Source: Bryoerythrophyllum caledonicum (Eukaryota; Streptophyta; Bryopsida; Pottiales; Pottiaceae). Taken from it: a DNA stretch of 64,000 bases. The DNA lies in NCBI GenBank assembly GCA_963971425.1, contig OZ020517.1:11038501-11102500 (forward strand), given 5' to 3'. A model generated the notes under the pieces. It made no database searches. It saw only the letters and a list, made by a program, of their open reading frames with translations, and had not been told where the DNA came from. The position numbers were made by a program, and so were the translations under genes. The number at the start of each line of letters is the position of its first letter. The stretch's first letter is position 1. Below are positions 7,516 through 36,132 of the stretch, piece by piece.

Positions 7516-10500
7516 AATCCCCCCCGATGGAGGCTATCCTAAGCCCTTGGAAGAGGTTGAGTGACATCATTGACTTTGGTCAATTTACCCGAGGGTAAAC
7601 AATCGTCCGCTACCCCGGCGAACCGCCCGGCACACGGCGTCAAGCGTCCACCATTCGAGGCGACCGTGCTGCGGACGGCCATTCCGTTCGCAAGAGCGAC
7701 CGCACAGCCGTCATTTTGGGCGGACCGCTGGGCCGTCTGCTTACGGCTTCCGCCGACCGCCTCGGCCGTTCGCGCGGCAAACGGCCCTCTTCTAACTGAG
7801 CGGCTGACCGTCGGGCTATCGCGGTTTCCTGGTCCGGTCCGCTGATCGCTCCCCCGAACTCGTCCGCTGGTAGATGACATCCTCCAATCTTGGGTGTAGC
7901 CATAGCATGCTCCACCTGCGTCTAGGCTTTATTCGACTACTAAACAACACAACTTCATTCCTTATTCAAACCCATTGTTCGAACGGTTGGATGGAATTGA
8001 GAGTCCTTTAGTGTGCCAAATCAGGTGAGATACAAAGTTCAAAGTATGTATCATCTAAAAAACTGTACAGAATATCAACTTTGGCGCCTTTGTAAAATAC
8101 AAACCAAGCGTGCACTCAGAGACTCAAATGGGTTAAAACTTAATACAACAAGGCACAACATCCACAGAGAGATCAACAACCTTTAGCAAGAGTTGGACTA
8201 TCAAGTCAAGAGATACAATAACAAAGGCAAATATGGCAGCCTTTCTCCAATCTCTAGCTGCAAGAAAACGACCCGACGGTACCCAAGAAGAGTACTCGAG
8301 AGGCTGCGCCAAGAAGAACCTCTCGATGCTGCTGGAGGCACACAAGTGATAACCTAGTGCACAGGAAAATGTTAATTCTTAGTGATTTCAAATTTCAGCC
8401 TCGATGAGCTCTTGTGTTGTTTTCAAAGGCTCTACGATTGTTAACAGAAACTTTTGTGGTGCTCTTGAAATTCAGAGTTGTCAGGACGCTCGACGTCCAT
8501 GACGTCCGGTCTTCTGAACAAATGATGTCTTCGGCCCGAGGAAGACGTCCGGTGACATCATTGACTTTGGTCAGTTTATCCGCGTGTAAACAATCGTTCG
8601 CTATCCTGTCCGATCGTCTCGCAGACCGCGTCGGGCGTCCACCATTGGAGGCGACCGCGCTACGGATGGCCATTCGTCCGCTAGGGCGATTGCACGGCCG
8701 TCATTTTGGGCGGACCACTGAGCCGTTTGCTAACGACGTTCGCCGTCCGCCGAGGCCGACCGCTCGGCCGTTCGCGCGGCAAATGGCCCTCTTCTAACTG
8801 CGCGGTTGACCGTCGGGCTATCGCGGTTTCGTGGTCCGGTCCGCTAATCGCTCCCCCGAACTCGTCCGCTGGTAGATGAAATCCTCCCGTCTTGGGTGTA
8901 GCCATAGCGTGCTGCACCTGCGTCTAGGCTTTGTTCGACTTCTAAGGACCACAACTTCATTCCATATTTGAACCCATTGTTTGAACCGTTGGATGTCACT
9001 GGGAGTCCTCTTAATGTGCCAAATCAGGTGAGATACAAAGTCCAAAGTATATATTATCTGAAAAATTGTACAGAATATCAACTTTGGCGCCTTTGTAAAA
9101 TACAAACCAAGCATGCACTCAGGGACTCAAATGGGATAATACAACAAGGCACAACATCCACAGAGAGATCAACAACCTTCAACAAGAGTTGCACCATCAA
9201 GTCAAGAGCTACAATTAGAACGGCGAATATGGCAACCTTACTCCAATCTCCAGTTGCAAGGGTGCGGCCCGACGGTACCCGAGAGGCTGTGCCAAGAAGA
9301 ACTTCTCAATGTTGCTGGAGGTACAAAAGTGATCATATAGTGCAAAGAAAAATTGTAATTCTTAGTGATTTCAAATTTCAGCCTGGATGAGCTCTTCTGT
9401 TACTTACAAAGGCTCTTCGATTGTTAACAGAGGCTTTTGTGCTGCTCTAGAAATTCAGAGTTGTCAGGACGCTTGACATCCATGATGTCCGGTCTTCCGA
9501 ACAAAGGACGTCTTCGGCCCCAGGAAGACGTCCGTTAACATCATTGACTTTGGTCAGTTTACCCAGGGGTAAACAGCCGTCCACTATCTGGACCGACCGC
9601 GTGGCAGACGGCGTCGGACGTCCACAATTGGAGGCGACCGCGCTGCGGACGGCCATTCTGTCTGCAAGGGCGACCGCACGACCGTCATTTTGGGCCGACT
9701 GCCCGGCCGTTCGCACGGCAAACGACCCTCTTCTTACTGCACGGATGACCGTCCGGCTATTGCCGTTTTGTAATCCGGTCCGCCGATCGCTCCTTCGAAC
9801 TCGTCTGCTCGTAGATGACATCCTCCCGTCTTGGGTGTAGCCATAGCATGCTGCACCTGCGTCTAGGCTTTGTTCGACTTCTAAGGACCACAACTTCATT
9901 CCATATTTGAACCCATTGTTTGAACCGTTGGATGTAATTGGGAGTCCTCTTAATGTGCCAAATTAGGTAAGATACAAAGTCCAAGGTATGTATCATCTAA
10001 AAAACTGTACAGAATATCAACTTTGGCGCGTTTTTAAAATACAAACCAAGCGTGCACTTAGAGACTCGAATGGGTTAATACAACAAGGCACAACATCCAC
10101 AGAGAGATCAACAATCTTCAGCAAGAGTTGCACCATCAAGTCAAGAGCTACAATTAGAATGGCGAATATGGCAGCCTTACTCCAATCTCCAGCTACAAGG
10201 GCGGGGCCCGACGGTACGCGAGAAGACTACCCGAGAGGCTGTGCCAAGAAGAACTTCTCAATGTTGTTGGAGGCACACAAGTGATAACCTAGTGCACAGA
10301 AAAATGTTACTTCTTAGTGATTTCAAATTTCAGCCTAGATGAGCTCTTGTGTTGTTTTCAAAGGCTCTACGATTGTTAACAGAAACTTTTGTGCTATTCT
10401 TGAAATTCAGAGTTGTCAGGACGCTCGACGTCCATGACGTCTGGTCTTCCGGACGAAGTACGTCTTCGGCCCCAGGAAGACGTCCGGTGACATCATTGAC

Positions 10501-14867: not shown

Positions 14868-15261
14868 TAGACAATTATACAAAATTAGCCCCAAGAATAT
14901 TAATATGAAAGTTTTTAAATAATCTGAATCTTAACCACTAGACTGTATCACAGACCAATACAACGACATTCTAACATGCCCCGAAGACATTGCAAACAAA
15001 ATATTTAACCAACAGACAAAAAAATATTGACCTAGAGTACCAACATGTAACTACCAACCACAACGCCCAACTGAATGCACATGTGCAGTATGCCAATATC
15101 CATGGCATGATCTAGATGGATTTATCTTAGACAAACGAGGCAAACCCGAAATTCCATTACACACATATTTCAACAAAGCCATATACGACACATGCCTCCG
15201 AAACCTCGGTAATAACAAAGCCCCAGGGCCAGATCAAATATCGAACTCAATACTCAAAATC

Positions 15262-16299
15262 ATGCGACCAAGATTCCATAAATTACTATTTTTATTCTTC
15301 TCCCACCGTTATAAACAAAAAAAAATACCAGCCTCATGGAAAACAAGTGCAATAATCTTAATATATAAAAAAGGAGATCCTTCAATACTACCAAGTCATA
15401 GAGCAATTGCATTAACCAACACGATATATAAACTTTGCACCAGTACACGTACCTCAATATTATCCTCGTATGGTGAAAAGTTTAAAATCCTACACGATAG
15501 TCAAGAAGGATTTAGAGCAGAGAAAAGTACATCTAGACAAATACAAACCATAATAGCTGCACTAGAAGACACACGATTCACAAATCAAGACATATATATT
15601 CTATATGTGGACTTCAAAAATGCCTTCGGTTCTGTAGACCACGCCCGACTACTAGCGATAATGGCTGATATTGGATACCCAAAAGATGTAACTACACTAG
15701 TTGGAAATATCTACTCCCAATCATCTACGTACTACACCGGTGAGCACTTTCAAATTGGTAAAACTAAGCCTATCTCCATTCTTAGAGGAACTATACAAGG
15801 AGACACCCTCAGTCTATACCTATTCATCATATTCTTAGAACCACTACTTAGATGGCTAGAGCAAGGCGACAATGGATACATCTTAGGCACATCACAAATC
15901 ACCATAAACTCCGCCGCCCACGCCGATGACCTTGCTACCATGACTAACAAAGTAAAATCACTTCAAACACAAATTGACAAAATTGATAGATATTGTAAAT
16001 GGATTGGTATGGTCGTAGGCGTCCCAAAATGCGCTGCTACCGGATGCCCAAATAAATCCAAAATGAATCCAACTACATTTAAAGCCCTAATGCAAGCTTC
16101 TAACATCAACTACCGTGGCCAACCAATCCCCATACTACACCAAAACGAATCATATGTATACCTAGGCACAAACCTTGTTCCCTCTCTAAAATGGAAAATC
16201 CAAATTCACAATACGACCACAAAACTCATTAAACAATGCAAAGAATTAACAACATGTCCGGCCACTATGAAACAAAAAATTAAATGGTTGACACCGTAA
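15262..16299 (+). pseudogene. LINE reverse transcriptase domain
   Basis: This frame carries the reverse transcriptase that would copy LINE RNA at a nicked target. The region just upstream reads NNKAPGPDQISNSILK, the usual start of a LINE RT. Within the frame are the GFRAEKSTSRQI stretch, motif A (YVDFKNAFGSVDH, catalytic Asp), motif B (GTIQGDTLSLYLF) and motif C as AHADDLATM. ADD is preserved, but the residue before it is His where Phe or Tyr is usual. A stop at 16297-16299 ends the frame, with connection-domain sequence (KKLDQKIIAIQKTICGMPK) continuing just after it in the next frame. The element therefore has a shift or stop here and is inactive. Confidence 0.9.
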
Positions 16300-17702
16300 T
16301 ACGCCCAAGCATAGCATACAACTTCTACGCTGTATGATACTCTATGCCAGCCATCAAAAAACTTGATCAAAAAATTATAGCCATTCAAAAAACCATTTGT
16401 GGAATGCCAAAATGCATGTCAAACGCAATAACCCAATTCCCACAGAACCTATTTGGGCTTGAAGCTTCCTCCCTCAAAAATGCCTATCTCCGATGTATAG
16501 GGTAGCAACTACAAAATGACCTAAATGACAAAGGTAGGCTCGGAAAAATGTACAATGGATTAACTCACTACGTTCTTGCCCAATATGGCGGTGCCAAAAA
16601 TATACCTAGAATTAAAACTCACACATTTTTTCTATTAAAACACGTGGCTAAAGCTCACCTCAAGAGCATACTTCCAAATTTCCTCTTTGATCGAACATCA
16701 TTAGAAACATTATGGCACCAAGAAACACAAAGCCATAACGCACTAAATGCCCAACTCTCTCAAAAACTCTTCCAAAAATTCCTCTCAAAAAAATATTTTT
16801 GAATTAAAACAATCTACTTTACCAAATGGCACACACATCATGAATAATAAGGACTTCAAAACCTTCCACTTCACCCCATCCAAACTAATCAAGAGTGCCC
16901 TACATGTTGCCAAACAACTTTTTTGCCATCCAACATCCCCCACCACATGTGATACCCCTTGTAACATACACCCATGCTCCTACATACTCCAAGACCCATT
17001 CATCACCATCAACAACAACATCCTCCCACGAACTATCCAACCACCAATCCACCCCCCCAACCCATCCCACCCATATCATCCCTGTCCCCCCAACATACAT
17101 CCCCAAAAATCCCACCATATACCCTATTAATAACATCATTTGCCATAAACACATACAACACCTAGATACCAATAATATACAAAATACCTATACAAGATAT
17201 CTATGCCAATGGCAACACAATAACAACACATTCAACAAATGGCCCCCTTTAAGAAACCTCTTCCCAAGACACGACCATAATACCTCCACATACAACACCA
17301 AAAAACTAAAACAATACTACCAAAAAATTAGAAATAAACTCTACTCGGAAATCATTCAAGCTCACCACCCCCAAGAACAATTACACGACTCAAGATCCGT
17401 AACTCCACCCATAATCATTCCACTTCTAAACATCTACACAATGGAATTGAACCCCAAAATTGACATCCTCACATCCTCGAACACAATTAAAATAGAAAAC
17501 AACCAAGCTCAACTATTTGAAGAAAATGGCCGACATTTACACACCATCCCCACTACTAGACACTAATGGCTATGGAATCAATATAATTTGAAACTACAAA
17601 CTCCTACAAACATCGAACCGACAACCCAACCCTTCGAAACCGAACTAATCTAGCTATATCAAATATATAAATATCGCATCCCAAAAAATAATCCCCTCAA
17701 AA
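16300..17702 (+). pseudogene. LINE connection region, degenerate
   Basis: From about 16340 to 16800 one frame, with three or four stops, reads as an RT connection domain (IQKTICGMPKC, FGLEASSLKNAYLRCIG, GLTHYVLAQYGGAKN). 16890-17566 is a CCC/CAC-rich stretch of open but low-complexity sequence, followed by KLKQYYQKIRNKLYSEII in one frame. It shows no further domain, and frame changes show decay. Confidence 0.7.
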
Positions 17703-18326
17703 ATGCTCAATACTGTATACACAATACCCACACCCATTCTAGAGTCATTAATATCATCCTTCAATATAGAAGAATCATATTTCTCCTCCCCCATCACATG
17801 CTCCACTAAACTAAAAAAATTCTATTTCTCCTTTGAAAGAGATAAAATATTTGGGTCCTTTGGAAAAGCCTTCGACTATAAATGGGTCGGTAAGAGCATA
17901 GCTCACCCTCACAATGAGGAGGAAACTCAACAAGCTTTACACTGGGCCCGCCTTGCTGCACAAAATGACCCACTCCATACATCCACACTCATTATCACAC
18001 CGGACAAAAATTGGTACCAAAACTCTAACCAACAATCAAGCCCATTCATAGACTCCCATATCATTGCACTATTTGAAGCAAACTCAATCCTATACAAAGA
18101 ACCCACTATTCCACCCGAGCTAAAAAAACCCCGAATTGAACCATTTACATTACAAATAATATGTGTCCACCTCCAGATTCAAACCCTTGGCACCCTAGAA
18201 CAACTTGCCGAACTTACCTCCATAGCAAATACTCTAGACATACACCGCCTACACACAAAAATGGCCCCACCAACAACCAGACAAACCCCCATGAATCGAA
18301 GCAAAAAATGGTCAAAGCTAAAATAC
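17703..18326 (+). pseudogene. LINE unassigned domain between RT and RNase H
   Basis: An open frame of about 208 residues links the connection region to the RNase H domain across the MULE insertion. Its core reads FGSFGKAFDYKW, then HPHNEEETQQALHWARLAAQ, then LIITPDKNWYQN. The spacing W - (N/H)P - helix - PDxxWY is reminiscent of Dam-like phage adenine methyltransferases, with HPHN where such enzymes have NPPY. That is only a resemblance in layout, and I cannot confirm homology. The frame ends SKKWSKLKY at the MULE and continues INNTIDYLEM at 30510 without a shift. Confidence 0.55.
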
Positions 18327-18390
18327 GGGGATTGCTATTTTGCGTGCCCAATTTTGTGCGCCGCGAGCTGCGAGCCTAGGTTTGCGAGCC
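18327..18390 (+). repeat. MULE left terminal inverted repeat
   Basis: This starts GGGGATTGCTATTTTGCGTG and ends TTTGCGAGCC. It pairs with 30436-30499 at roughly three bases in four. The first 2 and bases 8-14 agree, and the inner 50 bp match well. Internal GCGAG/CTGCGAGC units could also fold on themselves. Confidence 0.9.
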
Positions 18391-19607
18391 TAAAAATAAA
18401 AAAGTTGTAAACTTATGAAGATAAAGTAAAAATAAAGTCAAAATATAAGAGAGCATAAATAAAGTTAGTCCAAAAACAAGGTAAAAAAAAGATGAAAGTA
18501 AAAGATAAAAAGGTAGGGCCCTATAGCCGTGGAGATCTTTGACTTGTTGGCATTAAATACACAAAGTCCTGAATTATATAGGCAAACGATTTAGATGGAT
18601 ATGTTCACTTTTACTACAGCAAGCTGCAATACTTTAAGTACCCTATGGCCGTGGGGTGATGAACGTTGATTTAGATACACTGGTAAACCTCTGGAAATAC
18701 CATAGGTATATAATGGTTGTCTTCAATACTGTGGTAGGCTATATTCCTTAAAGTAGCCCTGCAGGCAGCTCTGTGGATCAATTCTGATGAGGAGTCCAAG
18801 TTTCAGTTCACATGACGTTTACGCAGTGGTTTACTTTTGGGGTGCTAGACCATGTAGTACCTTAGTAGTTGTAGTAGGAACTAGTAAGATTTCAAGACAG
18901 AAGAGAGGACAAGGAAGGTTGAAAGAGTTGCGGGAGTGGGACATTGTCGACGAAGTTATTGCCAATTGATAGAGACACTAGTTGGTGCGCAGAACGGGAG
19001 ACAGATATGGCGCCGGAAAGTATACATGTAGACATTGCGGAGCTAATTTTGTCAGGAAATGGTTTGAAAACATGGAGTGCGAGTACTGGAGGCCACCGTC
19101 ATTGCAAGACTAGAAGACCACCTGACCTCAGAAAAGTGCTTAAATGTATTAGCGCCAAAGCACGTCTATGAAAGTGAATGCCAATGGAATGCACATATGT
19201 ACTAGCGACGTCGAGCAACACGGTCAGCCGCTGCACACATAATCGACATAAGGCATGAACAGTGGTCATGGATTCGTTCTTGAACCAAGTCCTAGAGAAC
19301 ATGGGCTTAGGGCCATTGAACATTAGATTTCGTGAGTAGAAGGCTTGAGGATTGTAGTGGCAAAGGAGCATATCATGTAGTGGAAGCTCGTGAAATGAAT
19401 ATGAAGCAGTGAGGTATATTGAAACCCAATATTAGACTTCAGTGTATTTTGCATGGAAGGCATTTTGACTAAACTAACAAGAGAAGAGTCCTCAAAGAAT
19501 TGGTGTGCACTGTCAAATTACGAAGTGTTAAAATGACTTCAGAAGTAGAAGACAGAGTTTCGAATCCATGCCCAGTGACATGAATCGTATTGAGATAACA
19601 AGAAATC
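18391..19607. other. MULE left subterminal region, noncoding
   Basis: An A-rich stretch (AAAGTAAAAATAAAGTC-like, to ~18515) is followed by mixed sequence with two near-repeats of CCCTAT(A/G)GCCGTGG (18528 and 18640). No coding frame is supported. It lies downstream of the minus-strand gene. Confidence 0.6.
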
Positions 19608-22600
19608 CTAGGAAGTGGAGAGGATACTAATCTCGACCTCCGCTTCATCATCAATGAAACAACGAACACGACTGTCGTAACAAAGAGCAGATGAAGTCGA
19701 AGACGGAGATTGTGCCGGAGCTAGGACCATTGCAGACGCTGCATCCCAAGGCGCCATTTCAAAGTCTCGTTCAGGAGATAACTGCTGCTCAATCAACCTG
19801 TCGATGTGAACCAAAAAATAGTTATGAAGTGAAAAATTACTGAAAAACTGGAAAGCCAAAAAGAATGGAACTCACTTACTCAATTTGGTTCCCTTTGTAA
19901 CTCTTCGAATTGGGATGTCCACGTCAATAAGCGGTCGCGCAAGAGAGGGAGGGGGAGCAGGGGCGACTCGTGGACGTCCTTGAAGAAAAGGCCTCAATTT
20001 TGCATCAAAGACTGAAATGTCCTTGCCGAGTGCTACAATGTGCCGGCTTGAAGATTGGCATGCTCAAATGGAATTCCATGCAATTAAATCATAAAGCCAA
20101 CTAATGAGAAGTAGACTAAAGCCGGAATTGGCGAGCATTGATGCACAAAGAATGATATGGTTGAACTAACCAATAGAGGCAAAGGCATCCAAGATGAGGG
20201 AGCTAGGCTCCGTCAGCGCCTCAATGAACATCTGAATGAAGACAACGTCTTTCTCACGGGGGGCCCTCCAAGGAGTAGACCCATTCATCGACTGAGACTC
20301 CTTAGAGGTAAAATTAAACATCACATCCGAATCTCCAACTCCCATGCCAAATTCAGTGTGCTCATCATTAACAACGATTGAAAATCCATTAGCTCCGAGC
20401 TTATCATGAATAAAGAGTTGAATTTTGAAGCGCTTGCTCTGAAATTCAAAAACAACGTCAGACACAAAAAACGAATTGCAGGCAAAACAACAAAAGTTCA
20501 GGATAAATATGAGGCACAACATACCTGAACGCCTGGAGAGAAGAACGACGTCAAGGGAAGGTCGTTAATTCCCACCACTCACGAATAGGCTGGAAGCCAT
20601 AAGCGGCGGCAAACAAGAGAACTTCAACTTTAATGTTGGGGACGTCAAAGACAAACAGCAAAACAACCCCCTTTGACTGTAGAAAATACTCAGCAAACTC
20701 AAACAGCATCTCCGTCTCTGGGACGGCATACTCATTCCAGAGCGGGATGTCGCTTGAGCTTTTGAAGACGCCTGGAATGAACATGCCGTTCTTTATATCT
20801 CCGATAATCAAATCGAAGCCGCTATGGGGACAATGCATCGAAAGAGACATTGATCCACTTTCTTTCTTCACCTACATTTTAGAATGTTAATTGAAGATTT
20901 GAGCAAACTTTAGTGTAGAGATTAGTAGAAACGAAATGAAAAGGATATGCAAGAAGGCGTCAGAGAGGGCATGAAAAGGACTGCCAATATCGGTAGTGAA
21001 AAAACAAATTAATTGAAGTAACGAAAATTTCCACCAGAGGTGCTGCCGACATCGGCACCTTGTAGTCTTAGTAGGAAATGCAAAAGTCAGCCGCCTAATT
21101 TAAGGATCTTGCGAGTCTCTGTCGCCTGTATGAACAACAAAACAGAAAGTAGAAACAAACGAATTTGCACAGCCGACATAGGCGGCTATGAAATCCAAAA
21201 CTGAAAAAAAAAGGGGGCAGCAGACAATCATTTGATTTGTCGACATTGGTTCCAAAAACAACGAAAATAAAAAGAAATCATGCTAGAAAATGAATGAAAA
21301 TGATTAAAAAAAATTTAAAACGCTCCATAAAACAAATGATGCAAACAACTAGTGAAAATCAAACTTAAGGAGGAAACTACACCTTGAGAGCAAAATCGTT
21401 AAGCCCCTGAAGATTGGGATGAATGGCGGGAAGAGCCTCCATAATCTTCCTGATATTGGAATCCGCAACAAATATATGAGATTCAACTGAGCTAGAATGC
21501 CTACATTGAGACTTCTTGGAAGTCGCTCGTCTCTTGAGGTTGTCATTGACGATGGAGATGGGGCGAGAATGTTGAACTTCAAGATCTGTAGGAAGCCCCT
21601 CTGAGCAGGTAGCTGTAAGCCCTGGAAACTGCGTTGAAAACTGTGGGACGTCCTCATTGAAATCCATATCGACTGATGCACCAATTTCACTCTCCGTAGC
21701 TCGTTTGCGGTTGTTTCAGCAGCCACCGCATCCGCTACCGTTTTCATGGTTGCTTGCGCCTATGCTGCCGCCACTTTTGCCGTCACCGCAACTTCAACTG
21801 CTAATGCTTTCTTTTTGGCCTCCTCTTCTGCTTTCTTCTTTTAGACCCGTGGCTTCTTGGTGGTGGCTCCGGCCGCGGCGGGGGGAACAATCACTTCAGT
21901 GCCAGTCAAAGAGGGCTGATCCCGTTCCGTAGTGATATTTTGAACGATGGAGGGCTATTCATCGGACAATCTAAGTACCATCCACAAGTCGCAAAATGTT
22001 CTTCATCCCACCTCTTCGCAATCTCGTTGGTTATCATGCAATTGTCACTTCTCCGGTCAAGGTATTCCGGAAAGAATGTTGGGGTCTACGATATTGCATT
22101 CTGAGGGAGAAGTACAAATTGATAGTAAGTATAAAGTACTCTTGAAACTGCCTCAGCCGAACCAATCTGGTCCTCAGGTTGTTTGTTCTTATGCGTTTTG
22201 TTGGCCTCGAAGTCCTGGACAAATGCTAAGTCCCATAGCTAGATTCTCATCTCCTCCACATAATCAGTAAGAGTCTTGACAACAGATTGATCTGGCGGGT
22301 GATAGTCAATTGTGACATTGAGATCCAAAAGGGAGGCATTGAAGAGGTCCTACTCTTCAGCAGCCAACTTGCAAAAAAGAAAAGTTCATTGTCAGAGAAT
22401 TCTAACGAAATTCAGGAAAACATGACTACAGAGAAGAAACTTACCTGCGCCCACCAAGTCGCATTCTGCAGCCACTCCGGAAATGAGTGATCAACAAACT
22501 TTGACCGAGGAAAGCGAACGGCCGCCCGAAGAGATGCTGGCATATTCCAGCGCTGCAACCACTTGACCTTTGTTGCGGAGTCCATGGTGGAAGTGGCTAA

Positions 22601-25423
22601 GTACTACAGCTTCTCCTGGGACATCTCATGATCATCTTCATGGTTCTTGTAGTGCTTTCAAACCTCCTCAAGAAAACGTGGAGTGTGCTTCGGATCTGCT
22701 ATGGAAAGTTGCTTCATAACTTCAGAGGGTCTGTCCTTCCTAATCTTTGCAACTGCTTTACTGATGTCCTCATGAAGCTTTGTTGTGTTCCACTGGCTTG
22801 ATTTTTCAGGAAATTGTCCCTTAAACTTCCTCGTGGCGTGAGCAACTGCATCGCCTAACTCTTGCTGCAGAAAAAGCGAAAAAACAAATCATTGAATTAA
22901 ATCAAATGGGAAATAGATCTTAATCATAATATTACAGTGCACCCAAAACAGTGAGTAAAAGCTTTGCATATGGAGGTGCCGACATCGGCACCTTTTGTGA
23001 AGGAGCGGCAACAGATTTCCATAATATTCAATGTGGATGAAGGACAATGGGAAAGGCAGACACCTGATAGAGCACACCAATGAGTGCGTCGACTGTCAAT
23101 GTGTACCAAATATGGTGGTTTGCGGACATTTGCTTCTTATCCGCGCTAGCAAGATCTTCTTTGGATACCAAATCTTCGAAAAATTTCAACGGCTGGCCCG
23201 CAATGCTTTGCATGCGGTACAACTTGTGCACAAGGTTAAGCTTCACGTGTCCTGTTTGATTCCGCCTGCAGTTCAAATGAATTTTGATAAGAATCAGTGC
23301 AAGCAATGCTTGTAATAAGAATTGAATTGGGATGCTTACCAATTAACTTGGTGGAGAGCAGTTTGAAGGCACCCAACATGACCTTCGACTTCCAGAATAA
23401 TTGACTCAACAGCATAGTGCCAAGCGGGATCGTTTCCGTGATCTCTATTAATAATGGGTAACCATGCCGCAAGCCAGTGATTACCGTCCCAAACGAGATC
23501 TTGCCACAAAATTGCTTCCATACCTCCTCCTTCATTAATTCTGACTCAACGTCATCGTTAGCCTTGACCCACAACAGGCTCCAACTTCCTTTGATATCAT
23601 TGAAAACATCCTGCGCTCTACCCTCATTATCATGGACCGCAACATAAAACACTCCATGGCCGTCCATATAGCCGGTGCTCACAAATTGAGCACCAAGAGC
23701 CATAACATCATTCTTAAGATATGGTCTAACCGCAGCAAGTGGCAACATTCGGCACAACGGAATATTGAGTTTAGACTTGTTTCTTGGTTTGAATTGTCGT
23801 TCATCAAGAATGAGACTAGTATTGGCGAACTCCATGACAACCAACTTGTCCATCTCCCTACCAAGCTCGTCCGCAGACAACTCTGCAGCCTGCAGGCAAT
23901 TCATGAGGAACAAACTCCTGCCCTCTAGGCGCGACATCGGTGTCTGCTAAGTCGAATGGAGTGTTGGTTTCACCGACCTCAGTTCCTAAAACAAAGAAAT
24001 GGCTCCCACCCGTAAACATCAAATAGGATAGATATTCCAACATGAAAGCAAAATTGTGCATACAACTTATTTACCAGCCATAAATATATGCGGCTGCGAC
24101 CGGTGCGATGAAGCTCCCGAGGCAGTTCCACTTGCCACCGGTTCTCCGTCCTGCGAACCTGAGCATCACAACAAATGAAATGGAAATTAAAAACCGGATT
24201 TTCCAACTAGCAATTGGATGCTAACCTCTCCAAGAAGAAGAAGATAGTCAAATAAAGGGAGGAGCTGCCGATGTCGACAACCTCTCCATCGAGGTGCGGC
24301 TCTCGCGAGCGGCGCCTCGATGGAGGGGCTGCCGACATCGGCAGCTTCTCCATTGAGGTGTCTCCCTTCAACCGAATGAAGTGGTCACTAAACCTTACAA
24401 GAATAACGACATTTGCGCAAACTCTAGGTTCCATCCTTGAAACTTCAGACGCAACATTGGTGTGAGTTCTAGGGTTTCAGAGAAATATGCATACCATCAT
24501 TGCCGGCTTGTCTGGTCTCCTCTACCTCTCCCGCACGCCTCGACTCGTCCTCCATTGTGCACGTCTCCACTCGTCCTGCATGTCGCGACTCCAAAGTCAA
24601 TTTCCTAGCCAATGCCCATTTTGTGAGCAAGTTATGCAGATGCGAGAATCATATGTGGATACCCTTGATATCCTCGGCTTCGCGAATGCTTGGGAGCCGG
24701 CTCTACTTCAACAATGCTCGGACTCGTGCAGGACTTGGACTATTTGTTCCAAACGGCGACACTCGAGAGAGAATCCTCAGCCATCCCCATTGCCTTCTCA
24801 CGTCGCTCTCAATGTGGAACCCTAAACGAGGACCTCCGAAAAGCGAGGTGTCTATAACCCTTTCGCGGACCCAACAACTGGTAAACAACCAAGGAGGTTC
24901 TAAAGACGCGGATCAAAGGAGAGGGGATTGATGTTATATTCTACCGCTGAGATTTGATGCTCTGGTTTAGTTAATGGAAGCAGACCTTTTGCAAGAGTGG
25001 TCACAATCATTTTACGTCCTCTCTGTCGAGGAAATAAGGACCGGGCATAAAACTAAGTGCGAATAGTCCATGAGAAGTTCAAATCAGTCATTGATACTTA
25101 CCGTGGTCCATCATTTCATCCATTTCATCACCACTTCCACAATCGCTTGCACCATTCTCACTTGTGCTACCACTGTGGCTGCCTTTTGGACTATTTGATT
25201 GTTTGCTTCCCATCACACTCTCGACAATATGATGGAGATCAACCTTACTTGCTTCTTCTGTTTCCACTTCAGCAGACCTTGTGCTCTCAAACTCCAAAAC
25301 TCTCGGTGTGTCTCAAACATCTGCTAATCTAGCGGTGGATCTTATGTCCCTCATCAGCCTCGATCGTTTCAGCTGCTTTGGGTTCGAGAAGAAAAAGGAC
25401 TGTTTTTTCCGCTTCTTTGGCAT
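19608..25423 (-). pseudogene. MULE accessory gene: NLS plus DNA-methyltransferase-like domain
   Basis: Exon 1 (25423-25102) starts MPKKRKKQSFFF, a basic nuclear-localisation signal, continues with an acidic Ser-rich segment and ends at a GTAAGT donor. Later exons include 24162-24070, 23937-23341 (LMNCLQAAELSADELGREMD), 23262-23060, a long region 22865-21370, then 20871-20551, 20438-20171, 20050-19880 and a last exon ending at 19608. 20871-20551 reads FDLIIGDIKNG...WNEYAVPETEMLFE...GVVLLFVFD. 20438-20171 ends STPWRAPREKD...LILDAFASIG, followed by SSRHIVALGKD. This is the order of beta-class amino-methyltransferases: motif IV, then the SAM-binding motif I. The catalytic (D/N/S)PP(Y/W) is DIKN here, so activity is doubtful even before decay. 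At least eight in-frame stops and two shifts are present. Exon limits are inferred from splice signals. Confidence 0.65.
24284..24325. repeat. 42-bp imperfect palindrome inside the MULE
   Basis: CTCCATCGAGG...CCTCGATGGAG with centre CTCTCGCGAG forms a near-perfect inverted repeat. It is bracketed by GCTGCCGATGTCGAC (24264) and GCTGCCGACATCGGCAGC (24328-24345). Confidence 0.85.
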
Positions 25424-26041
25424 AGTCCTTAAATTGGAGAGTTTTGTTCTAGGATATGGCAACCTCTTCGCTCAAGTCCTATTTATGGAACATTTTTCAT
25501 CGCACCTTAGATCCGTGCATAGGTTGCCTAGTCAGCTATACCAAATGCCAGGTACGACCCGCAATCCAAGTCCACTAAATATGGCACGCTTTCATCATCA
25601 TGCTTCTAAGTTAGTGTTTTTAAACTAAATTTAAAGTTCACCGCCGTTCTATGAAATTGTGCATTGTGGCACTAACCTTTGTAGATTTAAATTGACGGCC
25701 TCATTGCACTTTATTTTAAACCGCCATGTCAGACATAAATTGTGTTTTGTCTGGCATGTAGTTAATGATTCTTATTATGATGGATTTTATGATTCACCTA
25801 CAAATTCGTCACAACCTTCAGTGATCTTCTTTCTTCTACACCGCCGGCAAATCCCAACTACTCCAGACTTAAATTGAAACAACCACATGGCCCTCATAAT
25901 TTACGCTTTCCTCGACAATTTGAATTTGAATTCCATGAACCTTCAAGAGCGTCTATTAGAACGAGACCGCTTTGAAATGCATCTTTAGCCACCCTTGTCG
26001 CTCTCATCTTATGAATCACTTTACCAATTCTCTTGCTTCTC
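25424..26041. promoter_or_regulatory. Shared divergent promoter region of the MULE genes
   Basis: The 618-bp gap between the two start codons must hold both promoters if the starts are right. It is AT-rich, and I see no clear TATA box at a fixed distance on either side. Confidence 0.5.
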
Positions 26042-29000
26042 ATGGCTTCATCTGCGGATACGAACTCTGAATCGGTTCTTATTCGCGCCAATGGTCAAGC
26101 AATACCTATTTCGTTTCTTATTCTTGAGGATGGTTTTGCTAGTGTCTCTGGACGTCGCTTGGCATCTCGGTTCCACTTCTTCGAACACACTCTTCATGTC
26201 GACATGGATGTTCTTGACCCCCTCACTAACAAGGTCACTCATTCTATCGCTCAGATGCCATGTTCCAATGATAGTGTTAAGACTTGGTCTTTAGTTGCAG
26301 GGAACTATAGAGTCTATGGGACTAGAGACTATACCTCGGATATTTCATCGTCCAATTCAAATCCTGGTCGTTGTTCCACTCCAAACAATATCACCCCTCT
26401 TTTTTGGAAGGTAAAACTAGAGCCTTCAGATGAACCTGTAGTCCTTCTCAGTGACGACCCTGACAGCGAATGCATCCCTACTAGTTCCCTTCCAAACGTT
26501 CTCCAACAGAAGGTTTCCGTCAATCTTCCTAAGTCTTCTGCCCCTGAGAGTGTCGGCCCCAGCAATTGCAGACCCCCCCTTCCTCCAACAGTAAGTATCG
26601 TCCACTGTCTCCGACTTCTTAGCACCCGACAAGGATCAAAGTCGGTACTGTCAAAGCTTGATTACAACTCGATTCCTATTCGCAAAGTTGATTTTCTCCC
26701 TCCCAATTTTGATGGAGATGTTATCTTCGAACTTCCCTCACTGGGAAAGTACCCTCCATCTACAAAGGCTGGGCACCTCCATGGAATGGACAAACGAGAT
26801 GATGGCCACGTTTGGACTCGAACTGCCACTTCTCACATCAAATCCAAGTTTCATCTCACCTTTCGAATGTCTTCCTATCTTGGTGATCTCAAGTGCGCCA
26901 ATGAACTATGTGGTTAGTTCAAGCGTCCTAACAGGTCGTCTGCAGTCAATGATACTGAGTGGGAGGGCAATTCCGCATCTCCATTTGTGCCTGGTTGTGA
27001 CCCTCCCTTCAATTCTACTGTAGTTTGTGCTGTGTGTCAAGTTCCACCCACATGTTCTGGATGTTGCCAAACAAAGATATATTACATTCTTGGCAAAAGC
27101 CATATGACTTGTGCCTGCATCCATTTGGGTTCGCATGGTCACGCTGTGAAGATAGGGAACTACAGGGACTCCTCAGCGAAGCTCCATTCCCTCATCAGTG
27201 ACCAGGTGGAGCAAACTCCGGCTGCAACAAATTCGTCTATCGTATTAGAGGCTACCAAGGAGTACCTTGGGGAATTACTGCTCTGCCTAGATGGTGTTCC
27301 ACAAAAAACTCTGGCATTCGAAGAACTTGTCCCCGTCTTGGACAAGTTCAAGAAGATGTCGTCACCTAGCATTCGGAATGAGGTGACAACGTTCCGTTAC
27401 CTTCGCCATTTCGGTGTGATGGATAGCATCACCAAACTTAGGAGGTCCAGCAACTCGGCCTTTATCCAGGAGGAATTTTTTTTCAGGCCAAGGATTTGAT
27501 TCCGATAAAGTCTTCATCTTCAAGATGGCCGAGTTGGGTCCGGGGAGTGGAGTTGATTTGGTTAAGCCGATGCAACCAGGTGGTGATTTGCAGGACTCCT
27601 AGATGATGTTCGACCATGTCAAAGGCGTGAAATCATGGACTACAATGGCTTGCCATGTTTACGACTCTACTTACTATCGAGTCATGACCATAGCAGTTTG
27701 CGATATGCAGTCCGAAGATGTGGCAGCCCAGCAAGTGTTCTGGCGGAATCTCAACGTTGTTTGCAGCAGACACGACATGCCCAATCCTAATTTCAAAGGA
27801 TTCATGGCGGATAGCGCTCGGCTAATTGGAATGCTATTCGAGTAATTTATAGTAGTGGCGACGCAACGGTTCCCATGGAGTACCGGTTCCCATGGTACCT
27901 GGCGATTAGGGTGTGGTGGTTGTCTTCCGGGGCTACAACTGATGAAGGTCTTCCAAGACTAAAGCTCTGGCTTGCTTTCTGGCACTTCCGATATCAGCGG
28001 TGGGGAGGATTTATGGATCTTGTAAGTATACTCAATGACTTCTTCTCTCTAGTGCATCTATGACTTCTTCAATCAAAATTGAATTTCTTAAACACTACCG
28101 ATGTCGGCTATGCCTCCAACCTAGGCGGACGCCCGTACTTTGGTCATGCCTTCTAAGTCACCAGATCAGTTTGGGCTTTGCCGATATCGGCAATACTCCA
28201 TCCGTGCCCCCTTGTTACGTCACAGGTTGTCTATCTAGGAAACGCGCATCACAAGTCTACCAACTTCGCAATGCTTAACGTATTTTTTTGTTAATGTTAT
28301 GACCTCTATATAGGCGTATTGGTCTTCTATCTCCTGCCCTACTATTCTTGTGATTCAATCTAACTGTGGAACTGTACTTGATCTCAAATCTCTGTAGAAC
28401 CTCACTAAAGCTGAACTAGCGGAGATGCCATCTTGTAATTTGGCCGAGTCAGTTCATAACAAATGGTTGCAACAGTCAGGAAAAAGAGGGAACAATTTGT
28501 ATGGTGATGCAGTTGACGACATGGTTTGGGCTTTCATGCAGGTTGTTGCGTACTACCAATTCCTAAAGGGTTAGAAGCCAGGTACGGGTCTAGGAAAGGA
28601 AGAATTGCGGCTCCGTATTGCCCATCGGACTGCCCAACGTTCGGGAAATGCGAAGGTCCTCCATGCCGCCCTTGCCAACATGCCTTGTGCGGACGAATTC
28701 TGTATCCGCACTCCTCACCTTGAAGGAAAAGAGGAGTTTGTATCCTTGAAGAGAAAAGCGGGTCTTCCTCTAGGATTTGAATTTAATTTGCATCGCCGTG
28801 ATAAGATTAGCGTCTCCCGTCCGAGGGGTAAAGTACGTCGCATTGATCAAGTGATTGTCGACCTCACAGCTCAAGATCCTCCTCTGTCTTCGAATCGATC
28901 TGCGGATGCTCCTGAAGTACTTCCTTCATCTCCGCAAACAACTTCGTCCAGGGCTCGACACGTCAAAGATGTACAAGAGACAATCTGTGATGAGAATCAA

Positions 29001-29855
29001 TGGCACATTGCAAGGCTTCCCAAGACATCTGCCAGAAAATGTTTCGCTCTACAAGCCGGTACACGGAAGAAGTGTGCGGCCACAATTGTGCAGAACAATC
29101 GAGCAACACCTACGCCTATATACACTGGTCTCATGGACAATTTCAGGAAGACTCGATTAGAGAGACATCGGTTTTTCTTCTGTAGCGACGACATTCAACA
29201 TTGTATTATGGGCACACGGCGCAAGTGGGTTCAAAGTATGCCACCTCCCCCATAGTTTTGGCCAATTCAGATGGGCACTAACTTGAGCAGAACGGAGATA
29301 CTTGCTTTGGAAAATGCAGGGTTCCGTCTCGCAGAGCGTGAGGTTTTATCCCCCTAAAGGTTGTTTGATAAAGGCGTCTCTGTGAAACTCAACAATTATC
29401 CTACTCCTCCAAACCTAGCAGAGCATCCAACCAAGCGATATGGGAAAAACATTTGAAGAAACGAAGCTGCTCCTACTACTCGACATCAGAACAGCTACGC
29501 CTCAACTCTCTCCCTAATGGGAAAAATCTGCACGATTCTGATGGTTCCGCAACTTCCGCCTCTAGCGTTGGGTTGCATTGTGACTTTGGAGTCTCGAATC
29601 ATTTCCACAGTTTCCCGATATTTTGTAACAATTGGGCAGTTTCCAAGCTGTGACTGCCTATCTTTTACAGAGGTGTCAAAAAAATCTCTCGGCCAACGCG
29701 GTTCATGGACTTACTGCAAGCACCTTTATTACATCTTCAACATTGTGTGTGGTTTAGACCCGGAGGTAGATGTCTTCATTCACGCACCTAGTTTCAACTG
29801 GAATGAGATTAAGCGAATTGTTCAGATTGTGCTCCTTAAATACTACGGTGCATAG
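26042..29855 (+). pseudogene. MULE transposase pseudogene (GCM1/WRKY-like Cys/His, DDE-like core, SWIM)
   Basis: The frame starts at ATG 26042 (MASSADTNSESV). The first exon contains a Cys/His region (KCANELCG, then CAVC...CSGCC, then CIHLGSHGHAV) of GCM1/WRKY type. The core follows (MMFDHVKGVKSWTTMACHVYD, then FKGFMADSA and in the next frame ANWNAIRVIY), then WWLSSGATTDEG to a GTAAGT donor at 28022. The next exon (28398-29855) reads NLTKAELAEMPSCN onward, including a CFALQA...KKC cluster, and ends with a SWIM finger, CDC...C-K-H (CKHLYYIF near 29735). Stops lie at 26915, 27600, 28572, 29253, 29355 and 29454. Frameshifts lie at a T8 run (27475) and near 27818, and part of the core is deleted near 27880. 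Together these domains identify a Mutator-like transposase. Confidence 0.82.
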
Positions 29856-30435
29856 CTACCATTTGTACTTCTTTGACCTTGTACTAGGTCACTCACTCCA
29901 GTTTAAAGACGGTGAGACTAAAAGGGCCACCTCCAAAGTTTGTACTACATCTTGTCCATCTTTAATTCTACACTTGCAAGAAAAAGGGAATAGAGGTGCG
30001 CTGCCACATCTGATTCTCCTTGGCCCTAAACCCTAAGCGTAGTTAAATTTCCCACCCTTCCACTAACCCACTTGAGCTTTGTTTACCCGATCCCTTTCTA
30101 CACCCTTGTAAAATTTAAACACCCTAAATCTCTCAAATTTAGTGTTTTTGTTGTCCATCACCCTACACCAAATCAAAACATGTACCTCCTAAATGAACCA
30201 CTTCCTACCAATTACGGCATGGGTTGAACAATATTTCCATGGCTATAGGTCTATTTAAAAAAAATATCCGCCAAATTATCAACCCTAAACCTCATGCGTA
30301 TAATTTCTACACCATCCTCTACGGTATTAGGTCCATCATTTTATTGCTTTTAACCATTGTCACCAAAAAATTACCCATTAAAATTTTACTTTTTCACGCC
30401 TTGTAACAATTAAGAAACAATATATTTGCCCTCAA
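29856..30435. other. MULE right subterminal region, noncoding
   Basis: This pyrimidine-rich, AT-rich sequence (CCCTAAA- and CACCCT-like words) lies between the transposase stop and the right TIR. I see no coding signal. Confidence 0.6.
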
Positions 30436-30499
30436 GGCTCGCAACCGTAGGCTTGCAACTCGCAGCTCGCAAAACTGGGCACGCTAAATAGCTTGGTCC
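30436..30499 (-). repeat. MULE right terminal inverted repeat
   Basis: Read inward from 30499 it begins GGACCAAGCTATTTAGCGTG and ends GGTTGCGAGCC, mirroring 18327-18390. The target duplication GCTAAAATAC follows at 30500-30509. Confidence 0.9.
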
Positions 30500-32117
30500 G
30501 CTAAAATACATCAATAATACAATAGACTACCTTGAAATGCCCCCACCCCTCCCAAACTACCGAACTCCAACTTCACCAAAATTTGACCCCGCATACACCT
30601 ACTACACCGATGGCTCCTTCAAACCACCTGAACAAATTAGCCCGACAAACTGGCGCAAAGAAAATGCCAGATATGGCATATACAATCCTATCAAAGAAAT
30701 TAAATTAGCCAAAAGACTTCATGGGCTACAAAACATCCTTAGAGCAGAACTTATGGCCATACACAAAACACTACAAATCATTACAATAAAATACAGCAAT
30801 GAACCCACACACATATTCAGTGACTGTATCAATGCACTTTATCTACTAAACAACCAGATAACACACCCTACCCTCCACAATAGCCACCCTGACCAAACTA
30901 TATTAATGTCAATGGCCCAAATGCTACAAAACTGAACACAAATGACAACCCTCCACAAAGTTAGAGCCCATGCCAACATCGATGGAAACGAACAAGCCGA
31001 TAAACTAGCAAAAGAAGGCTGAGAAAAATCACATAAAAATGCCAAAGATCCATACCAACATGCCCATGCTACACCATACTACTTCCAAAAAGAAGATTGG
31101 CCCTCCAAAGAAGATACATGCGACAAAGGCCTGATCAGATTCTTGAACAAATATCTCAAGAAACAAGACCTCTACAACAACCTCGACACAATTGCAGAAA
31201 ACTTCCCCAACATAGAAAAATGGACCGGCAACAACAACATAGACAATGAATTCTTTACAAATTTCTGGAAGAATCCCACCATCACTGACTCACAAATAAC
31301 ATGCCTCATCAAATTCCGCACCGGTCAATACATGGGAAACGCCTGAAAACAACTCTTCTTTGGAATAGAAAGATTCCCATATATAACATGCCCCATATGC
31401 ACCTCCACAGACCCCGACACATGGCTACATGTTTTACTTAAATGTCATAACCACCACACACACTCCCTAATTGTCAAAAGACACAACAAAGCCGTATGGG
31501 AAATCCGTAAATTAATCACCTCCCATAACAAATCGAGATGTTTTATCGTCATGAATGTCGGCACCTTTAATAACAACCCACAAGAAAATATGGTTCCACC
31601 ATGGCTACTCCCATGTACATGTGATACTCAACGATGCCAATGCAATGCTCGACTCAAACCGGACATACTTTGCCTTAGAGGCCTACCATAGAATGACCCC
31701 CCACCCGACCACATAAACCAAGACTACACCATCCAATTCATCGAATTTAGATACTGTAACGATAGATTCTCCTGAGAAACAATCGAAAACAAAATCAATA
31801 AATACCAACCCCTTATTGATGACATCATTGCCCTCGGATGGAAAGTGGACCCCCTTATTGTAATCACAACCGGCGCCCGTGCCACTACCTTTATCCCATC
31901 CATAAAAATCCTAGAAGGTATCCTCAAAATTCCTATTGATACCATTACAAACACTTTCAAGAATATTAACATCATTGCCATAGAACATGCTATGTCAATC
32001 TTCCTACATAAACGTAAAATTGAAAACAACCAAGCCCTTCTTGATACACAAGACCCCCCATAAAATTACCCCTTACCTCATTTCTAATAAACCCTGACAC
32101 AGCGAAACACACCCTCC

Positions 32118-34815: not shown

Positions 34816-35277
34816 CTTTTATCCAACATTCATTACGATCAGAAAGGTGATGATTATCCGGCCAATGAATGTTATGCATCCGAATCCATAAGTCAACCCC
34901 TAATTCGTTAAAGCTGAAAAGAGAAACATGAAAAGAAAGTGAGAAAGAGGAAACAGAAGGAAACAGAAAAAAGAAATGGAGTCTTTTAAAGATAAAGATA
35001 GAAGAAAAGGAGAGGAGACGTACAACGGAAAAGTAAAGGTAAATATAAAGTAAAGGTAAAAGTAAGCGCATGAAGTTCCACTGGGTGCGGTCAATGGTTT
35101 TGAAGACTTCATACTTTGACTTTGATACATTTATTTTATACCTTTACTTTAGTACTTATATTCTATTCTTTTACTTTTGTTTTTCATTATATATACTCTG
35201 TAATAAACTTATGTATGTCAAATATATTTGTAATATACAATATCATATATTTTCTCGCAGAAATCTTTTGTTTCGTC

Positions 35278-36132
35278 ATGGCTTCTGAAAAGTTTGAGCT
35301 GTTGGATGATTCCACCATTCCATGGTACAACTGGCACGAAGACAGCGACAAGCCTCCTCCGGAGGAAAACATGATCTGGGATATGGAGACAATTGGAAGA
35401 CCATGGGTAGGGAAGCCCAAAGTAACTACAAGTGAGGATTCAGTTCCCCAGGAAACCAAGAGTTTGAAGTGCGGATTCTGTTTCCGGAATATCACTTGCA
35501 AGCAAGGGCAGCAACTCGGCCATTATTTCATGTGCAGAATGGCTAATGGTGACACTGGTACAGAAGACCTTGAACAAGAAGTCTTCAAATGTGCAAAGGG
35601 GCCTGTAGTTGTGGAAATTGATGCATCTGGAAAAGAATCCAGACGCACTCCAACAAATGAAGAGATTTCTACTCCCCCAAAGAAATCCATTCCTGTGCAC
35701 AGTAAGAGGCCTAGGACCGTTAGAGCCATTACTCGTCCTCAACAACTCAAACCCAGGCAGTTCGATAAGAGGCCTATGGTCGTGGATGAGGAACCCAAAC
35801 CCATGCACTTGGATGCTGATAAGAGACCTATGGCCGTGGACGAGGAACCCAAACCCAGTCACTTGGATAGTGATACGAGGCCTATGGCCGTGGACGAGGA
35901 ACCCAAACCCACTCACTTGGATACTGATAAGAGACCTATGGCCGTGGACGAGGAACCCAAACCCACTCACTTGGATACTGATAAGCGACCTATGGCCGTG
36001 GACGAGGAACCCAAACCCAGTCACTTGGATAGTGATACGAGGCCTATGGCCGTGGATGAGAAACTAAAATTGGTAAGGGATTTAATTAAGTTTCTTCCAT
36101 ATGACATTGGATATCCTGAAGATTCAGGATAA
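35278..36132 (+). CDS. Zinc-finger protein with acidic/proline 18-residue repeats
   Basis: I do not recognise the family. From ATG 35278 (MASEKFELLDDSTIPWYNWH) the frame runs 284 residues. Residues ~60-85 hold a compact cysteine/histidine cluster, CGFCFRNITCKQGQQLGHYF then MC, suggesting a C2HC-type zinc finger. A basic stretch (SKRPRTVRAITRP) follows at ~140. Residues ~163-260 are an 18-residue repeat (DKRPMAVDEEPKPTHLDT) in about five and a half copies, acidic and Pro-rich, probably disordered. The longer upstream frame (from 35116) is hydrophobic and AT-rich, so I prefer the later ATG. At least one other copy exists, broken by the hAT at 2102. The gene belongs to a small family moved or duplicated locally. 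Confidence 0.65.
   Translation: MASEKFELLDDSTIPWYNWHEDSDKPPPEENMIWDMETIGRPWVGKPKVTTSEDSVPQETKSLKCGFCFRNITCKQGQQLGHYFMCRMANGDTGTEDLEQEVFKCAKGPVVVEIDASGKESRRTPTNEEISTPPKKSIPVHSKRPRTVRAITRPQQLKPRQFDKRPMVVDEEPKPMHLDADKRPMAVDEEPKPSHLDSDTRPMAVDEEPKPTHLDTDKRPMAVDEEPKPTHLDTDKRPMAVDEEPKPSHLDSDTRPMAVDEKLKLVRDLIKFLPYDIGYPEDSG
35764..36062 (+). repeat. 54-bp in-frame tandem repeat (coding)
   Basis: About 5.5 copies of a 54-bp unit each encode DKRPMAVDEEPKP plus five residues. Copies alternate in blocks (SHLDSDTRPM versus THLDTDKRPM), so the array grew by duplicating pairs of units. Confidence 0.92.

Follow-up and report, generated by a model that had tools for sequence, protein, structure and literature searches.

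A moss MULE-like transposon family with a ParB-fold, methyltransferase-like accessory protein and element-associated palindromes as its candidate targets

Direct knowledge of how transposons escape host silencing is limited to a small number of examples, of which VANC is the best that we know, and in the literature searched we know of no earlier palindrome target proposed for accessory proteins that join a ParB-like domain to a DNA methyltransferase-like domain (ParB-MTase proteins). VANDAL21 is a Mutator-like element (MULE), and the bacterial CTP-switch proteins ParB, Noc and KorB act at parS-like palindromes. MuDR/mudrB of maize is a two-gene Mutator-type element, in which the accessory gene mudrB is, to our knowledge, unrelated in the domains seen to the one described below. 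Here, we report on a MULE-like element of the moss Bryoerythrophyllum caledonicum and its relatives in the same genome. The element lies in a stretch of 64,000 nucleotides, hereafter the window (assembly GCA_963971425.1, contig OZ020517.1, positions 11,038,501 to 11,102,500), and carries a ParB-MTase accessory gene opposite its transposase gene, as well as palindromic sites associated with the element.

In the available excerpts of the respective papers, VANC21 is described as binding YAGTATTAY motifs that form arrays in VANDAL21, both in introns and in upstream regions, and as inducing loss of methylation; the authors propose co-evolution of motif and protein through tandem repeats (PMC5735166). 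Sola1-1_Ec32 of Ectocarpus has an accessory gene opposite the transposase gene that encodes a ParB-like and N4/N6 DNA-methyltransferase protein, and ParB-MTase accessory genes are reported from green and red as well as brown algal transposons (PMC12477816, excerpts). In Bacillus cereus, a ParB domain is fused to an adenine methylase in Bce_0392, for which nicking activity is reported (PMC5512222, excerpts). A survey of Mutator elements (PMC6446971) contains neither “methyltransferase” nor “accessory” in its main text.

The accessory gene type as such is thus already known; what is new is the MULE-like carrier, the missing catalytic DPPY motif and the element-associated palindromes. The opposite-strand ParB-MTase gene is shared with Sola1-1_Ec32, but the carrier there is a Sola element rather than a MULE-like one with 10-bp duplications, its methyltransferase is predicted to modify DNA whereas DPPY is gone here, and palindromic arrays are not mentioned in the excerpts of PMC12477816. 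With VANDAL21/VANC21, the moss elements share an accessory protein together with intron or upstream motifs that are often tandem and vary among subfamilies; YAGTATTAY, however, is non-palindromic and lies in one orientation, whereas the sites here are palindromic. The excerpts of PMC5735166 say nothing of ParB-MTase domains in VANC; anti-silencing is demonstrated there, whereas it is a proposal for the moss elements. Bce_0392, the product of a bacterial gene, resembles the accessory protein in domain make-up.

Besides the window copy, four full-length elements were read, namely e1 (15,519 bp), e2 (16,198 bp), e3 (12,353 bp) and e4 (12,536 bp), which were picked by gene or terminal inverted repeat (TIR) matches and so are not a random sample. 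All five are flanked by perfect 10-bp duplications (CACTGGGATA, GATATTGACA, GTCAGGTTCC and TAGTGGGAGA in e1 to e4, respectively), have TIRs of 56-70 bp ungapped with 84-93% identity, and hold the two genes divergently between these TIRs. The same arrangement recurs elsewhere in the genome (437 Mb, 894 contigs). A scored transposase match lies within 20 kb of 94 of the best 150 accessory matches (1723 candidates from a search with the ParB-like exon); 93 of these pairs are divergent, at distances of 2.9-17.3 kb (median 6.8 kb), one is not, and the other 56 accessory matches have no scored transposase match within that distance. The search with the transposase DDE exon gave 301 matches; among the best 150 of 2330 candidates scored, 92 are divergent to an accessory match, 2 are otherwise placed and 56 stand alone. 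An earlier note on the window, made from its letters alone, had envisaged a family that pairs the two genes, and these counts bear it out. As a finding against it, that note had named TIRs without both genes in all other copies, which is not the case. Among the best 40 of 337 TIR candidates, the window's own TIRs included, 13 have the accessory gene inward (within 20 kb) and 9 the transposase gene (within 25 kb), that is, 8 have both, 5 the accessory gene only, 1 the transposase only and 26 neither, judged against the 150 scored matches per gene. The latter 26 may be derivatives, or subfamilies outside those scored matches; 7 of them (L002-L008), read 1.5 kb inward, resemble, at 67-83%, segments within the initial 400-950 bp of the window element. 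Many of the best 150 transposase matches sit in open frames of 700-830 codons, and 14 copies on contigs C1-C4 and C6-C11 are identical in score, identity and a 757-codon open frame, which probably reflects recent amplification of one subfamily, that of e3.

The AlphaFold model of relatives, which covers the nucleotide-binding-type domain, gives the accessory protein a ParB/sulfiredoxin (Srx) alpha/beta fold, with named members of this superfamily making up 29 of the 32 listed structural matches. The DGNHR motif, kept at 90% or more across 80 sequences, agrees with the phosphate-binding-type motif of the superfamily, and we equate it with the GERR/GCHR type. On this modelled fold, the protein holds a ParB/sulfiredoxin-fold domain of nucleotide-binding type, which the earlier note had missed; the methyltransferase-like domain that it did recognize is borne out by PF01555 (N6/N4 methyltransferase, beta class), which matched 3 of 4 spliced accessory rows (best E 2.2e-6; the first member scored 21.9 bits, below the 26.7 cut-off). 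Homology to PF01555 covers motifs X to I, and the best Protein Data Bank (PDB) matches are DpnA and M.RsrI. The catalytic (D/N/S)PP(Y/F/W) is absent from the DPPY place in each of the five elements, and likewise in P0027: motif IV reads GDLKDG in e1 and e2, GDIKNG in the window (FDLIIGDIKNG in context, exon 20520..20871), ADIPDG in e3, ADLKDG in e4 and ADLKSG in P0027. Motif I is altered as well (DAFASVG; DTTATVG in e4). Stop-free accessory copies are nevertheless under purifying selection. Judged by its sequence, the domain is a homologue that has lost DPPY and is classed not as an active enzyme. This loss makes catalytic writing less likely and weakens the suggestion of the earlier note that the pairing alters the element's own methylation state. 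A protein that still writes N6mA or N4mC on its element, with the palindromes as recognition sites, would agree with the PF01555 homology, with the recognizable part after motif IV and with the epigenetic self-modification that the Ectocarpus authors propose for a similar protein (PMC12477816, excerpts), but given the state of motifs IV and I we regard it as improbable. A tblastn search with P0004 against 50,697 phage records returned no match up to E 1.

The palindrome CTGCCGAYRTCGGCAG, 16 bp long, is intronic in the accessory gene as well as in the transposase gene and frequently forms arrays with a 63/64-bp step; it had gone unnoticed in the earlier note, as had the dead state of the window copy. 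A repeat scan of the window element first turned up GCCGACATCGGC-like copies. At up to three mismatches, TGCCGAYRTCGGCA has 9 sites in the window element, whereas the remaining 52 kb contain 4, each with three mismatches, and 20 shuffles of the element gave a mean of 0.7 and a maximum of 3. Including flanks, e1 and e2 have 27 and 18 such sites, largely in 63/64-bp steps, and both hold 127-bp arrays. Exact copies of CTGCCGAYRTCGGCAG occur at 335 places in the genome and its reversed control at none; among 50 listed places, all on C1, 49 have a scored match to the accessory or the transposase gene no more than 8 kb away (random expectation: mean 0.4, maximum 3). One exact palindrome, G000:C1:37470196, is distant from such matches and may be a remnant or part of an element outside them.

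A transposase-intron site was found at up to two mismatches in 30 of 30 loci, some of them identical copies, and a site at up to one mismatch in 29 of 30 accessory loci; the two transposase-intron sites show stronger conservation than the sequence around them. The search left the centre bases open; YR filled them in 116 out of 122 distinct contexts, and the site is accordingly dyad-symmetric. Read in the transposase sense, CA (53) mildly outnumbers TG (31). Remote subfamilies keep the core CCGMYRKCGG between different arms (GGGTGCCGCTGTCGGCACCC in e3, GCAGCCGATAGCGGCTGC in e4), the e3-type palindrome variant being GGTGCCGCTGTCGGCACC. This core occurs 5 times in the window element, 20 in e1, 9 in e2, 3 in e3 and 4 in e4, and not once in 63 kb of outside sequence, a descriptive comparison given that the pattern derives from these elements. 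Another palindromic tandem, CCATGGCCATGG..., occupies about 7914-8030 in an accessory intron of e4 (L075) and is perhaps a further site type.

Two alternative explanations of these sites were considered. They could be cis sites on the transposase side that have nothing to do with the accessory protein, bound by the Cys/His part of the transposase or serving a host factor as enhancer or insulator sites: introns of either gene contain them, the transposase intron at all 30 loci, and the transposase has a zinc-finger-like part of its own. Yet eight TIR-end loci of 3 kb each, the place expected for transposase sites, contained no palindrome, and arms that vary by subfamily fit a self-encoded binder, although a co-evolving transposase predicts the same; we find this account unlikely. 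Alternatively, the palindromes could be intronic RNA hairpins or minisatellite units spread by slippage, in line with the 127-bp arrays, the intronic positions and the mild bias at the centre. Against this stand dispersed single sites at homologous intron places that are conserved above their surroundings, a centre that is nearly always YR and common in both orientations, which an RNA loop does not need, and subfamily variants that largely keep the symmetry, so that such an origin seems less probable still.

VANC21 of VANDAL21 is the nearest precedent that has been demonstrated, and the moss elements share its layout, with a ParB-fold protein and palindromes. Self-recognition followed by protection from silencing is the best-supported reading. 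The accessory protein, as a dimer, would recognize palindromes in its own element and load onto them, much as ParB does at parS or VANC at its motif arrays; once loaded, it would keep host silencing off both genes, and the transposase would then be expressed. From the analysis as a whole, we put the probability of this entire chain at roughly 0.4. That the protein binds the palindromes is, in our estimate, an even bet; that the outcome would be anti-silencing rather than DNA modification is suggested more tentatively, and we infer that nucleotide binding or clamping matters. The boundaries, the gene pairing, both domain assignments, the loss of DPPY, purifying selection and the association of palindromes with the elements form the firm ground. 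The bacterial proteins ParB, Noc and KorB share the predicted domain fold and likewise have palindromes clustered on the replicon that encodes them, but they are partition proteins with a helix-turn-helix and a ParA partner and no transposase, and the DNA contact here is a proposal. It is conceivable, if doubtful, that a eukaryotic transposon runs a parS/ParB-like system in which a nucleotide switch loads the protein on self palindromes and lets it spread over both genes against silencing. The dead methyltransferase module would then be kept for DNA reading or dimerizing, neighbouring palindromes would lie about six helical turns apart, and protein and arms would diverge together between subfamilies.

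The anatomy of the window copy (Table 1) is nearly certain. The earlier note had bounded a 12.2-kb element to the base, and perfect duplications and TIRs indeed flank both ends; on the + strand of the window, GCTAAAATAC occurs only as these two duplications. The TIRs, which that note put at 64 bp, measure about 65 bp: 58 bp align ungapped (18334-18391 with 30435-30492, 84% identity), and the 7 terminal bases diverge more (GGGGATT / GGACCAA). As claimed, the frame of the host long interspersed nuclear element (LINE) rejoins exactly when the element and one duplication are removed, the two frames being read separately: the left one stops at 18326 (..KKWSKLKY) and the right one, from 30501, reads LKYINNTIDYLE. 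This LINE (15031-18316 and 30510-31700) is strongly strand-asymmetric in composition, and its frames resemble, as we take it, reverse transcriptase and RNase H. The divergent gene pair with a shared promoter of about 620 bp was also correctly recognized, the start codons lying head to head at 25423 and 26044, 620 bp apart; we take the MPKKRKKQ start of the accessory protein to be nuclear-signal-like. Compared with the open-frame relative e1, the window transposase has 8 + 4 stop codons, some in a shifted frame, and a blastn gap near 27882-27893 marks the loss of about 132 bp; the ParB-like exon of the window copy is frameshifted with HW in place of the HR found in nearly all relatives. Because of these stops, frameshifts and the deletion, neither protein can be made in full from the present frames, and the window element is a decayed member of a large, probably recently active MULE-like family.

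The Cys/His spacing and DDE-like part that the earlier note ascribed to the transposase are seen by eye, and its GCM1 and SWIM labels found no profile support: the Pfam profiles for MULE and SWIM gave no match (up to E 1 and up to E 5), and a PDB sequence search gave no relevant match up to E 10. The motifs judged by eye are DDE-like, CxxH, NLAESVHN and CxC..CxH. A 10-bp target-site duplication fits the MULE range of 9-11 bp, and we call the family MULE-like on duplication length, TIRs and these motifs.

Table 1. Features of the MULE-like element in the window (window positions).
Feature	Position	Strand	Basis or remark
Left target-site duplication, GCTAAAATAC	18317..18326	none	
MULE-like element body, decayed copy	18327..30499	none	12,173 bp
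Left TIR	18327..18391	+	end-to-end comparison, genome matches
Accessory 3' exons, region of motifs X to I of the methyltransferase-like domain and C-terminal tail, one stop	19611..20444	-	approximate limits 20444-20170, 20084-19870, tail 19820-19611 (tblastx to e1, PF01555 on spliced rows)
Methyltransferase-like N-terminal half exon	20520..20871	-	frame change near exon end
Palindrome site TGCCAATATCGGTA, 2 mismatches	20982..20995		accessory intron
Palindrome site TGCCGACATCGGCA	21044..21057		intron
Palindrome site AGCCGACATAGGCG, 3 mismatches	21171..21184		intron
Accessory middle exon with charged stretch	21380..22390	-	comparison to e1; stops
Accessory middle exon QQELGDAVAHATRKF...	22440..22870	-	tblastx to e1; broken
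Palindrome site TGCCGACATCGGCA	22977..22990		intron
Accessory exon CRRNQTGHVKLNLV...	23061..23270	-	tblastx to e1
ParB/Srx-fold exon, (V)WDGNHR motif	23337..23946	-	fold taken from relatives; frameshift, HR->HW
Small accessory exon	24073..24156	-	tblastx to e1
Palindrome site TGCCGATGTCGACA, 1 mismatch	24266..24279		intron; next site 64 bp off
Palindrome site TGCCGACATCGGCA	24330..24343		intron
Accessory first exon, basic N-terminus MPKKRKKQ, one stop	25120..25423	-	tblastx to e1
Divergent promoter interval, 620 bp	25424..26043	none	no palindrome at <=3 mismatches
Transposase exon 1, rich in Cys/His and by eye DDE-like	26044..28022	+	stops, frameshift, ~132-bp deletion
Weak site TTCCGATATCAGCG, 3 mismatches	27986..27999		inside coding exon; e1 and e2 read TTCCGATATCGGCA
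Palindrome site TACCGATGTCGGCT, 2 mismatches	28096..28109		transposase intron
Palindrome site TGCCGATATCGGCA	28179..28192		transposase intron
Transposase exon 2, SWIM-like CxC..CxH by eye	28398..29855	+	stops
Right TIR	30435..30499	-	end-to-end comparison
Right target-site duplication, GCTAAAATAC	30500..30509	none	

Elsewhere in the window, an open reading frame (ORF) at 4149-4964 (-) presumably resembles a hAT/TTF-type transposase, another at 35104-36129 (+) contains a tandem, PMAVDEEPKPTHLD-like peptide repeat, and ORFs of a plant-like host gene lie at 46599-47938 (-), with a stretch, WVKCDDCGFWRRLP, that we take to be CW-type zinc-finger-like.

With its 335 places, the palindrome is a concrete, genome-wide cis target candidate for an accessory protein of the ParB-MTase type, and the family becomes a second candidate for transposon escape from silencing, with a protein architecture unlike that of VANC. 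A methyltransferase domain that lacks DPPY and is constrained all the same calls for caution in inferring 6mA writing from domain names. The function of the ParB-MTase accessory proteins of brown, green and red algal transposons thereby becomes directly testable.
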